Source: Polynucleobacter sp. MWH-UH24A
Lineage (GTDB): Bacteria; Pseudomonadota; Gammaproteobacteria; Burkholderiales; Burkholderiaceae
Assembly (NCBI RefSeq): GCF_018687475.1
Contig: NZ_CP061292.1
Span: forward strand, 1,178,001 to 1,242,000
Direction of reading: 5' to 3'
Length of the DNA: 64,000 nucleotides
In this document: positions 1-60,590 of the stretch, piece by piece
Layout: every line of letters begins with the position of its first letter
Position numbering within the stretch: position 1 is the first letter of the stretch
Program-made: the position numbers and the translations under genes
The notes under the pieces: generated by a model
Databases searched by the model: none
What the model was told of the DNA's origin: nothing
What the model saw: only the letters and a program-made list of their open reading frames with translations

Positions 1-777
1 CGTACCTGCTGCAGCGGCGGCAAATGTCTCGTCATCTGGTTGAACGAACTGACCAGAAGCATTGCGCAATTGAATGTGAGTCATGTTGTTCTTCTTAGCA
101 TAGGCATACTCAACATAGCCAATCGAGTTCTTCACACGTGATACGTTCGCAGCAACACCTTCGTTACCCTTACCACCAACCGATGAAGCAGCAGGCCACT
201 TCACAGCAGCGCCAGCACCAACGGCGGATTTCCAATCTGCACTCACTTTAGCCAAGTAGTCAGTAAAAATTGCAGTTGTACCAGATCCGTCTGCACGGTG
301 AACCACGGTAATCTCACCTGCAGGAATCTTCACACCAGGATTCAAATCAGCAATCCGCTTGTCATTGAAGTTGGTGATTTTTCCTTGGAAAATATCAGCC
401 AAGGTTTGGCCATCTAAACGAATTTGACCAGGCTTGATACCGTCTAAGTTAATGATCGGTACAACACCACCGATAATTGCGGGGAACTGAACCAATCCAT
501 CGGCCTGTAGATCCTCAAACTTCACTGGGTTATCAGTTGCACCAAAGTCTACAGTCTTGGCTTTAATTTGTTTGATACCGCCTGAGGAACCAATTGATTG
601 GTAGTTCAAACCAGTGCCAGTACGAGCTTTATAAGCTTCAGCCCACTTGGCATAAATTGGGAAAGGGAATGTTGCGCCAGCACCAGTAATGTCCGCAGCA
701 AAAGCGGCTGGAGCAAAACTTGCCGTTGTTATGGAAAGAGCCGCTACTGCTAGGGCTTTTTTCAAAGTAATCGTCAT
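1..777 (-). CDS. pstS: Phosphate ABC transporter periplasmic binding protein PstS (partial, C-terminus off window)
   Basis: Binds inorganic phosphate in the periplasm and delivers it to the PstCAB importer. The 259 visible codons start at ATG 777 with an AAAGGAAG ribosome site just upstream. They encode a Sec signal peptide (about residues 1-27, ending AAFA) followed by GAGATFPFPIYAKW, the SSGG phosphate-binding loop and RADGSGTT, all typical of PstS. About a quarter of the protein, and probably pstC/A/B, lie beyond the left edge. A Pho box sits 55 bp upstream, so induction by PhoB under phosphate limitation is expected. The product identity is clear; the operon beyond the edge is inferred. 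Confidence 0.95.
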   Translation of the reverse strand, partial: MTITLKKALAVAALSITTASFAPAAFAADITGAGATFPFPIYAKWAEAYKARTGTGLNYQSIGSSGGIKQIKAKTVDFGATDNPVKFEDLQADGLVQFPAIIGGVVPIINLDGIKPGQIRLDGQTLADIFQGKITNFNDKRIADLNPGVKIPAGEITVVHRADGSGTTAIFTDYLAKVSADWKSAVGAGAAVKWPAASSVGGKGNEGVAANVSRVKNSIGYVEYAYAKKNNMTHIQLRNASGQFVQPDDETFAAAAAGT

Positions 778-57973: not shown

Positions 57974-59524
57974 TTAAGGTGCCATTTGGGCATTCAGTTT
58001 CATGGCGCTTGGATCGTGTAATTTATTCAATGCCGCCAAATAAGCCTTGGCAGAGGCAGCAATAATGTCTGGATCCATCCCCACGCCGTTCACAATCCGC
58101 CCTCCCTTAGAGAGACGAACCGTGACCTCCCCCTGCGACTCAGTGCCCGACGTGATGGCATTGACCGAGTAGAGCAATAACTCAGCACCACTTTGTACCT
58201 TACTCTCAATGGCGTGCAAAGTAGCATCAACCGGACCATTGCCTTGGGCTTCAGAGTGCACGTCGTGACCGCCCATCTTAAATACCACCTTCGCCATTGG
58301 CTTTTCACCGGTCTCGGAGTGCTGGTTCAATGAAATAAAGCTAAAGTGCTCACTTTGATCAGCCACCGAAGAATCCGACATCAAGGAAATAATGTCTTCA
58401 TCAAAAATCTCGGCTTTTTGATCGGCTAAAGCTTTAAAGCGAGCAAATGCATCATTGAGTTCACTCTCCGACTCCAATACCACACCTAACTCAGAAATAC
58501 GTTGTTTGAAGGCATTCCGACCGGATAACTTACCAAGCACGATGCGATTGGTCGCCCAGCCCACATCTTCAGCCCGCATAATCTCGTAAGTATCACGAGC
58601 CTTCAATACACCATCTTGATGGATACCCGATGCATGAGCAAAGGCATTTGCACCAACCACGGCTTTATTGGGCTGCACCACAAAGCCTGTGATTTGCGAA
58701 ACCAATTTAGAAGCCGGTACGATTTGTTTGGTATCGATCCCCACTTCCAACCTAAAGAAATCCTTGCGAGTACGAACTGCCATCACAATTTCTTCTAAGG
58801 AAGTATTACCTGCCCGCTCGCCCAGACCATTAATCGTGCACTCTACTTGGCGAGCACCGCCAATGTGAACGCCGGCTAATGAGTTGGCCACACCCATCCC
58901 TAAATCGTTATGGCAATGCACGGACCAAATCGCTTTATCCGAGTTCGGAATCCGAGTACGTAAAGTTTTAATGAACTCGCCATAGAGTTCGGGGACAGCA
59001 TATCCAACCGTATCAGGAACGTTTATCGTGGTTGCGCCTTCAGCAATAACAGCCTCTAAGACTCGGCACAAGAAGTCCATATCCGAACGGTAGCCATCCT
59101 CTGGAGAGAACTCAATATCCCCCGCCAAATTTCTGGCAAAGCGGATGGACTTTTTTGCTTGCTCATACACCTGCTCCGGGGTCATGCGCAATTTCTTTTC
59201 CATATGCAAAGCGCTAGTGGCCAAGAACACATGAATGCGTTTTGCGTTAGCTGCCTTTAGGGCATCAGAGGCCCGAGTAATATCGGTCTCATTGGCACGT
59301 GCGAGGGAGCATACGACTGAATCCTTCACCGCGGCAGCAACCGCAGAGATTGCTGCAAAGTCACCCTCTGAGCTAGCCGCAAAGCCGGCCTCGATCACAT
59401 CAACTCGTAAGCGTTCAAGTTGACGTGCAATCCGCACCTTCTCATCTCGAGTCATGGATGCACCAGGCGACTGCTCACCGTCACGCAAGGTGGTATCAAA
59501 AATAATTAATCGATCACTCATCAT
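57974..59524 (-). CDS. leuA: 2-Isopropylmalate synthase
   Basis: First committed step of leucine synthesis, joining acetyl-CoA and ketoisovalerate. 516 residues: [17 protein letters not shown] (about 8-24), [16 protein letters not shown] with the metal His pair, [14 protein letters not shown] and the C-terminal LeuA allosteric domain from about 390 (leucine feedback). AAGGA lies 6 nt before the ATG-ATG start. An attenuator controls read-through from pssA. Confidence 0.98.
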
Positions 59525-59560
59525 TGATTCCTTCTTTAATAATCCAATGCTCCGTTTTCT

Positions 59561-59590
59561 AAAACAAAAACCCCAGCAATTTAGCTGGGG
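59561..59590 (-). terminator. Leucine attenuator terminator upstream of leuA
   Basis: The 7-bp stem CCCCAGC/GCTGGGG with a 6-nt loop is followed on the minus strand by TTTTTGTTTT. It lies 35 bp past the leader stop and 36 bp before the leuA ATG. Its 5' arm can instead pair with GCUcGGGGC in the leader (59638-59646), an antiterminator. Confidence 0.88.
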
Positions 59591-59624
59591 CTGGTTTGCG
59601 AACTTAGTGCCTTACTTCATGTGT

Positions 59625-59714
59625 CTAAGCGCGACCCGCCCCGAGCCTAAGGCCCAGTGCTAGAAGAAGTAGAAGTGCGCTTAATTGGTTCATCATGGAA
59701 ATAATATACCGCAT
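59625..59714 (-). CDS. leuL: leuA leader peptide (leucine attenuator)
   Basis: 29 codons from ATG 59714, which directly follows the pssA stop (TAA-ATG), to TAG 59625. Codons 14-18 are five Leu in a row (CTT CTA CTT CTT CTA), with further Leu at 20, 22 and 24. There is no strong ribosome site, so translation probably restarts from pssA; ATG codons 7 and 8 are alternatives. The ORF overlaps the antiterminator arm. A ribosome stalled at the Leu run would leave that arm free; one reaching the stop would cover it and let the terminator form. Confidence 0.8.
   Translation of the reverse strand: MRYIISMMNQLSALLLLLALGLRLGAGRA
59638..59646 (-). promoter_or_regulatory. Antiterminator arm of the leuA attenuator
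   Basis: GCUcGGGGC in the leader can pair with GCCCCAGC, the 5' side of the terminator stem (59584-59591), as eight pairs with one bulged C. It lies 15 nt or more past the Leu codon run, which suits release by a stalled ribosome. Confidence 0.65.
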
Positions 59715-60590
59715 TTACTCGGACTTAGCTGAGACTGTGGTTTCTCCACCAATCCGACGACCCATCGCCCGCTCCCACATCCACAATACATAGCCAGACA
59801 GGGAATACACCACAAAGAGGCCAAACAGAGTTAGTGGTGGATTTGAAGAAATCAAGACAAAACCCAAGATCAAAAGAACCATAACCCAGAAAGGCACACG
59901 GTAACGAATATCCAAGGCCTTACCGCTGTAGAAACGGGCATTCGAAACCATGGTTAGTCCTGCATAAATCGTAATGAAAAAGGTGACTAATGGAATTGCC
60001 GAATCCTTCACGGGTATCTTGTTATCGTCTGCCAACCAAATGAAACCAGCCAAGAGCGCTGCGGCCGCAGGGCTTGGCAAACCCTGGAAAAACTTTTTAT
60101 CAACCACGCCAATATTGGCATTAAAGCGGGCTAGACGAAGTGCGGCGCCAGCACAGTAGGTAAATGCTGCTAACCAGCCCCACTTGCCCAGATCTTTTAA
60201 AACCCACTCATAGGCCACCAACGCTGGGGCCACCCCAAATGAGACCATGTCTGCCAAAGAATCGTATTGCTCACCAAACGCACTTTGCGTATTGGTCATT
60301 CGCGCAATTCGGCCATCCATGCCATCAAGAACCAGTGAAGCAAAGACCGCAATCGCTGCGATCTCAAAACGATGGTTCATGGCGTTCACAATGGCAAAGA
60401 ACCCACAAAATAATGCCGCCGTGGTGAATAAATTCGGTAATAAGTAAATCCCTTTGTTCCGAGGCCTTGGTGGATCTTCGATCAGATCATCCTCGTGCGA
60501 CTCATCGGCCGAGCTCCAGTCCTCACGCCGTGTATTTTTACTCCGCAGAAAGCGGGGGCGGCCCATTCGGAACTTACGACGCGAAGTCAT
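59715..60590 (-). CDS. pssA: CDP-diacylglycerol-serine O-phosphatidyltransferase
   Basis: Makes phosphatidylserine in the membrane. 291 residues. The CDP-alcohol transferase motif D-G-x2-A-R-x8-G-x3-D-x3-D is visible in MDGRIARMTNTQSAFGEQYD plus SLAD. About eight hydrophobic segments follow a basic N-terminal cytoplasmic stretch of about 45 residues (RRKFRMGRPRFLRSK). It pairs with psd, 4 bp upstream. Confidence 0.96.
   Translation of the reverse strand: MTSRRKFRMGRPRFLRSKNTRREDWSSADESHEDDLIEDPPRPRNKGIYLLPNLFTTAALFCGFFAIVNAMNHRFEIAAIAVFASLVLDGMDGRIARMTNTQSAFGEQYDSLADMVSFGVAPALVAYEWVLKDLGKWGWLAAFTYCAGAALRLARFNANIGVVDKKFFQGLPSPAAAALLAGFIWLADDNKIPVKDSAIPLVTFFITIYAGLTMVSNARFYSGKALDIRYRVPFWVMVLLILGFVLISSNPPLTLFGLFVVYSLSGYVLWMWERAMGRRIGGETTVSAKSE

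Follow-up and report, generated by a model that had tools for sequence, protein, structure and literature searches.

What lies between pssA and leuA in Polynucleobacter sp. MWH-UH24A, and could it let leucine control leuA? In the window (the whole stretch of 64,000 nucleotides that was analysed) the genes ilvB (cut by the window), ilvH, ilvC, psd, pssA and then leuA are collinear on the minus strand, and the pssA-leuA gap holds an ORF rich in Leu codons, an intrinsic terminator and, just 5′ of leuA, the ribosome site AAGGA of that gene. An initial annotation saw here a leucine attenuator of classical type, with a leader starting on the pssA stop codon. The core of that proposal held: conserved Leu codons and competing stems give a classical-looking ribosome-mediated leucine attenuator before leuA. 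Judging from sequence comparison, we consider it likely that leuA is preceded here by a leucine attenuator of the ribosome-mediated type, transcribed from a promoter of its own.

The locus and its relatives

The next large identified gene 3′ of leuA codes for polynucleotide phosphorylase; it is not leuBCD. The position beside a phospholipid gene had been called unusual; however, a tblastn search placed a pssA homologue 5′ of leuA in 212 of 239 regions, and the placement is therefore ordinary for the group. No Leu leader was seen by eye 5′ of ilvB. Just past the window end, on the minus strand of L241 (about 790-845), a TACAAT hexamer 5′ of ilvB is followed, before the gene, by an 11-bp inverted repeat, CCGCAAAGAAA / TTTCTTTGCGG, which has no T tract (by eye). 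Elsewhere in the window, the minus strand at 18687-18876 matches RF04192, the carA RNA motif described from Polynucleobacter (PMC8632094), with 106.8 bits against a threshold of 100.

Table 1. Features of the pssA-leuA interval (window positions)
Feature	Position	Strand	Basis
pssA, CDP-diacylglycerol-serine O-phosphatidyltransferase	59715..60590	-	NCBIfam TIGR00473
-10 hexamer TATATT, predicted leu promoter, 6 nt before leader ATG	59703..59708	-	genus comparison
Leader ORF MMNQLSALLLLLALGLRLGAGRA, 23 codons + stop	59625..59696	-	genus comparison
Leader ATG = predicted transcription start (leaderless)	59694..59696	-	-10 spacing, scarce Shine-Dalgarno-like motif
Putative regulatory Leu run CTT CTA CTT CTT CTA	59661..59675	-	Leu codon counts
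Region 1, 5′ arm of protector hairpin holding part of region 2	59651..59657	-	alignment + fold
Region 2, antiterminator 5′ arm GCTCGGGGCGGGT within ORF end	59634..59646	-	pairing + fold
Region 3 ACCAGCCCCAGC, antiterminator 3′ arm + terminator 5′ arm	59584..59595	-	pairing + fold
Intrinsic terminator hairpin (regions 3:4), 9 pairs	59569..59592	-	scan + genus alignment
T tract TTTTTGTTTT after hairpin, first bases overlap stem end	59561..59570	-	sequence
leuA, 2-isopropylmalate synthase, predicted regulated gene	57974..59524	-	NCBIfam equivalog 883.9 bits

Three sets of upstream regions were compared. In the genus, 172 of 186 genomes had a LeuA match, and the genus set consists of 72 regions, all of them distinct (L001, L083-L113, L201-L240). 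The named set (71 regions, L012-L082) came from a scan giving the best 80 of at least 589 LeuA matches, and is called the best-80 named set below; the matches include several Polynucleobacter records with 81-82% identity, and L003-L011, which include several loci named Polynucleobacter, were inspected and left out of the named counts. For the order set, LeuA was found in 170 of 200 genomes, and 87 regions were used, 27 taken automatically and 60 hand-picked for spread over families.

A leader was defined by a strict rule: an ATG, 12-50 codons, at least 4 Leu and at least 18% Leu, and a TAnAnT hexamer 5-8 nt 5′; this spacing is built into the selection, the control being the share of other ATGs of these regions that carry such a hexamer, 0.5-1%. 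Such a leader was found in 72 of 72 genus, 52 of 71 best-80 named and 38 of 87 order regions, the full pattern appearing in 9/1200, 2/1040 and 0/760 dinucleotide shuffles, respectively. A looser rule gave some clear chance matches, several within pssA, and these were left out of the counts.

The strict rule failed in 19 of the 71 best-80 named and 49 of the 87 order loci; some of these are real absences. Nine of the 19 are tandem leuA loci (L042, L048, L054, L055, L058, L060, L073, L077, L082), where a ∼560-codon ORF, LeuA-like by eye, lies between pssA and the leuA found. A script located a candidate -10/ATG/short ORF after pssA and before the first leuA-like gene in eight of them (in L055 with 3 Leu only); in the ninth, L042, a candidate with a hexamer spacing of 9 was seen by eye. 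As for the other misses, the leader begins with GTG in L013, has 3 Leu in L070 and 2 in L075 (by eye), and in L027 has a Leu share below the rule; L039, L059 and L062 have degenerate-looking leaders (by eye), the region of L046 is cut at a contig end, and in L045 and L081 a leader was looked for and none seen.

Start of the leader and its probable promoter

The leader had been annotated as 29 codons long. Its frame is indeed open from 59714 to 59625, but the conserved start codon is ATG 59696, 18 nt past the pssA stop. Among 70 distinct genus leaders compared, only L001, L083, L084, L085 and L087 have an open in-frame ATG directly on the stop codon of pssA; the sister loci L088 and L089 have an ATG there, and the frame stops after four codons (by eye). 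Between the pssA stop and the leader ATG lie 13-50 nt in the 72 genus loci, 19-814 nt in the 52 best-80 named loci (with another gene in between in the 814-nt case) and 7-329 nt in 27 order loci, 11 further ones being without a pssA match. The start at 59714 was rejected, as its ATG is not conserved across the genus, the pssA-leader distance is variable and the -10 hexamer marks 59696; most likely, by sequence comparison, the leader starts at 59696. In another genus locus, L202 (leader 111-266, minus strand), a one-base alignment gap shifts the frame and alters the peptide end; the RNA arms are intact.

All 72 genus loci have a -10 hexamer (TAnAnT) 6-7 nt before the leader ATG (spacing 6 in 59, 7 in 13), as compared with 7/1411 other ATGs with a same-spaced hexamer in the genus set, 30/3224 in the best-80 named set and 12/1163 in the order set. 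A hexamer 6-7 nt 5′ puts the expected transcription start on the ATG. Shine-Dalgarno-like motifs precede the leader ATG in 4/71 genus, 0/52 best-80 named and 0/38 order loci, and the leuA start in 68/71, 49/52 and 37/38; genus row L226, in which the rule selects an additional ATG further upstream, was left out of this count. The window leader itself has no ribosome-binding site, in line with the initial remark that it lacks a strong one of its own.

No convincing -35 element was seen in the window, where at the usual distance it would overlie the last pssA codons. The -35 is weak in the genus (2-4 of 6 matches in 27 of 34 representatives), and in the best-80 named set, where an extended -10 is seen, it does not exceed control windows. 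In the order set TTGC is separated from the hexamer by a spacer of 17 nt. Since the -10 stays close to the ATG despite pssA distances of 7-814 nt, a dedicated promoter and a leaderless mRNA are favoured. The leader mRNA would probably be leaderless, transcribed from its own promoter; the initial proposal, in which leucine acts on read-through from an ilv-phospholipid transcript and not on a leu promoter, does not agree with this geometry. Read-through transcripts may also meet the same terminator.

Leucine codons, competing stems and rival explanations

The five consecutive Leu codons of the initial annotation are located at 59675-59661, and conservation of Leu codons, proposed there as a check, was found in the relatives: the leader is Leu-rich in all 72 genus regions, with an average of 8.6 Leu per 24.6 codons. 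The rare codon CTA makes up 196/622 leader Leu codons in the genus (31.5%) versus 19/1190 in the leuA parts (1.6%); the figures are 120/260 (46.2%) versus 5/1910 (0.3%) for the best-80 named loci and 28/291 versus 1/376 for the order loci.

Of 200 dinucleotide shuffles of the interval 59560-59714, 196 fold less well than the real sequence. The antiterminator arm annotated at 59646-59638 is present and reaches on to 59634, and the predicted terminator with its U tract was likewise recovered, as a hairpin at 59592-59569 followed by the T tract. The structure alignment comprised 69 of the 72 genus leaders; two with identical leaders were dropped together with L238, whose terminator the text pattern had missed. 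In these 69 rows 100% of 621 terminator cells are paired, and 6 cells have both sides changed, a number reached by 0/500 shuffles. A scan allowing longer loops finds the terminator in 72/72 genus loci and in 1/216 shuffles.

The protector hairpin has 83.2% of cells paired and 16 both-side-change cells (0/500 shuffles as high for each), including an exchange of AU to GC at one pair in 14 rows; the number of pairs with both-side changes is not above that of shuffles (440/500), and the seventh pair fails in 55/69 rows. The antiterminator has 91.0% of cells paired, most of the unpaired ones coming from an 11-row subgroup that is one column out of register; in L097, of this subgroup, CTGGGGTCGGT faces ACCAACCCCAG with a C-G to U-A exchange (by eye). 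Of the compensatory changes in both stems that the initial annotation had proposed as a check, those of the terminator were found in the genus, but those of the antiterminator did not go beyond shuffles (1 both-side cell, reached by 100/500).

Pairing between the leader end and the terminator arm gives -19.9 kcal/mol for own partners versus -10.0 kcal/mol for mononucleotide-shuffled leaders in the 72 genus loci. In 28 best-80 named loci, mostly Comamonadaceae-like, the leader end carries ACGGGC in 25/28, facing GCCCGT, and own pairing is -12.9 versus -9.2 kcal/mol for shuffled leaders. Swapping partners between the genus and these 28 loci gives -11.6 and -11.0 kcal/mol, the gain of own over swapped partners being modest in the named set. 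The three order loci that have a hairpin show no such gain over shuffled leaders: own partners give -7.6 and shuffled leaders -8.6 kcal/mol.

Antiterminator and terminator are mutually exclusive through their shared region 3. In 72/72 genus loci the antiterminator is the fold of the RNA that runs from region 2 through region 3. With region 4 added, the minimum-energy fold of the window leader is the terminator, even for the RNA 3′ of a stalled ribosome; antitermination would therefore have to be kinetic, with the choice made during transcription. For the ribosome-free window RNA up to region 3 the antiterminator is preferred over the protector hairpin, and the outcome for the untranslated state is therefore uncertain.

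The promoter/ATG geometry, the missing ribosome site, the Leu codon bias and the alternative stems can be read from the sequences; we infer the exact start site, the ribosome positions, the timing and the leucine response. RNA polymerase would begin on the A of the leader ATG or beside it. When Leu-tRNA is scarce, a ribosome would slow on the CUU/CUA run; when halted at the final Leu codon there (59663-59661), it would cover the RNA to about 59650, that is region 1, and leave region 2 (59646-59634) free to pair with the emerging region 3, so that the terminator would be forestalled and leuA transcribed. When Leu-tRNA is plentiful, the ribosome would reach the stop codon (59627-59625) and cover most of region 2; region 3 would then pair with region 4 and transcription would end in the T tract.

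Other explanations of the locus have to be weighed against this one. Translation of the leader could start at TAA-ATG on the pssA stop, within a long ilv-psd-pssA transcript and with no leu promoter. In the window the ATG at 59714 begins an uninterrupted frame in register with the leader, ribosomes finishing pssA could restart 18 nt further 3′, and ilvB-ilvH-ilvC-psd-pssA are collinear; however, outside the closest relatives such an open ATG is not found (an early stop follows in L088 and L089), the pssA-leader distance varies as given above, and the -10 hexamer beside the leader ATG is far above its frequency at control ATGs. We regard this explanation as improbable.

Still less probable is control of leuA translation by pairing of the Leu run with the ribosome site, with the hairpin serving as pssA terminator only. 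By eye, CTTCTT of the window's Leu run is complementary to AAGAAG at the ribosome site of leuA, but pairing between leader and leuA start is for own partners no better than for shuffled or swapped ones in any of the three groups (own, shuffled and swapped comparison in the 72 genus loci: -13.3, -14.4 and -15.1 kcal/mol), and the leader end has its partner in the terminator arm. As it exceeded neither control, pairing between Leu run and ribosome site was rejected. We give the least credence to a plain terminator after pssA combined with a chance Leu-rich ORF and no regulation: terminators after genes are common and a single genome could not exclude chance, yet the 72/72 conservation, the codon bias, the promoter geometry and the arm changes between groups speak against it, as does the rarity of the full pattern in genus shuffles (9/1200). 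The leucine attenuator with its own promoter is thus the reading we retain.

Occurrence beyond the genus and comparison with known leaders

The window leader had no Rfam match at gathering score (best weaker match NsiR1, E 0.38), and leaders of ten relatives had none at curated score. No convincing second copy appeared in the 1.9-Mb genome itself, the next covariance-model match having E 0.42 (150/585 candidates scored). Under stricter filters the leader sequence had no match in 56 genomes of other genera; therefore, only the layout is kept there. The terminator scan was positive for 43/52 best-80 named leaders (shuffles 14/156) and for 3/38 order leaders (shuffles 2/114). From the last Leu-Leu pair to the stop there are, in the median, 11 codons in the genus, 7 in best-80 named loci with a terminator, 10 in the nine without, and 4 in the 35 terminator-less order loci; order loci such as L147, L158, L160 and L170 have putatively leaderless Leu leaders ending in LLLR plus a few residues, with no intrinsic terminator by scan. 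The spacer has a small excess of C in the terminator-less order loci (35% C, 24% G), and 31% C and 25% G in best-80 named loci with a terminator. In two named relatives (L038 228-295, L052 116-183) the ilvH RNA motif RF02993 occurs ∼2.6 kb 5′ of the leader; the window has no match to it.

One could speculate that the Burkholderiales ancestrally had a leaderless Leu leader before the first leu gene behind pssA, and that the output module of this device has been exchanged, a possibility that we put forward tentatively and consider somewhat doubtful. Polynucleobacter and Comamonadaceae-type genomes would have the intrinsic terminator, most other carrier loci would lack it and have a spacer slightly richer in C than in G, and order loci would have their Leu codons right at the ORF end. 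A C-richer spacer and late Leu codons would suit Rho-dependent attenuation.

The classical enterobacterial leu operon attenuator is that of leuL-leuABCD. In contrast to it, the leader described here has a probably leaderless start, no ribosome site, another sequence and no Rfam match at curated score, and its leuA follows pssA, with no leuBCD as next large identified gene.

Leaderless attenuators are already known elsewhere, and the Polynucleobacter leader, as predicted, adds to them. In the trpL attenuator (rnTrpL) of Sinorhizobium meliloti the ATG of the leader ORF forms the 5′ end of the leader transcript (PMC7298713); this too is ribosome-mediated attenuation in a proteobacterium, but for tryptophan, in an alphaproteobacterium and with another gene and structure. 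Leaderless leader peptides are described for Streptomyces lividans, LeuL1 and LeuL2, one LeuL being followed by a hairpin and a U stretch (PMC8079986), and a leaderless ilvB leader for Corynebacterium diphtheriae (PMC5784534). By these descriptions the actinobacterial systems resemble the predicted Polynucleobacter leader in having a leaderless Leu-rich leader peptide 5′ of leuA or leuS; the actinobacterial leuA leader, unlike ours, is described without a typical intrinsic terminator. The Leu run of the actinobacterial LEU element was proposed to pair with the leuA ribosome site (PMC1262725), for which simple pairing against shuffled and swapped partners gave no support here. LeuL of Campylobacter jejuni and other Epsilonproteobacteria, a Leu leader 5′ of leuABCD (PMC3847290), is similar in leader size and rare Leu codons; unlike our leader, it was found via an ORF with a ribosome-binding site.

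Two Betaproteobacteria start-site papers report leaderless mRNAs; attenuation, isopropylmalate or leuA are not mentioned in the main text of one (PMC4603805), nor attenuation, isopropylmalate or leucine in that of the other (PMC7563307). The text available of a 26-genome RNA survey that includes Polynucleobacter does not contain the word 'leucine' (PMC8632094). Among the literature matches listed, by titles and abstract openings, no paper describes a leuA attenuator in Burkholderiales; an earlier description is possible.

The attenuator gives a testable leucine switch for a large group of freshwater and soil bacteria. It suggests that leaderless leaders, as in Actinobacteria and S. meliloti trpL, are also widespread in Betaproteobacteria, where searches requiring a ribosome site would easily miss them. 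The order-wide set permits a direct comparison of the versions of one device with an intrinsic terminator and without it.
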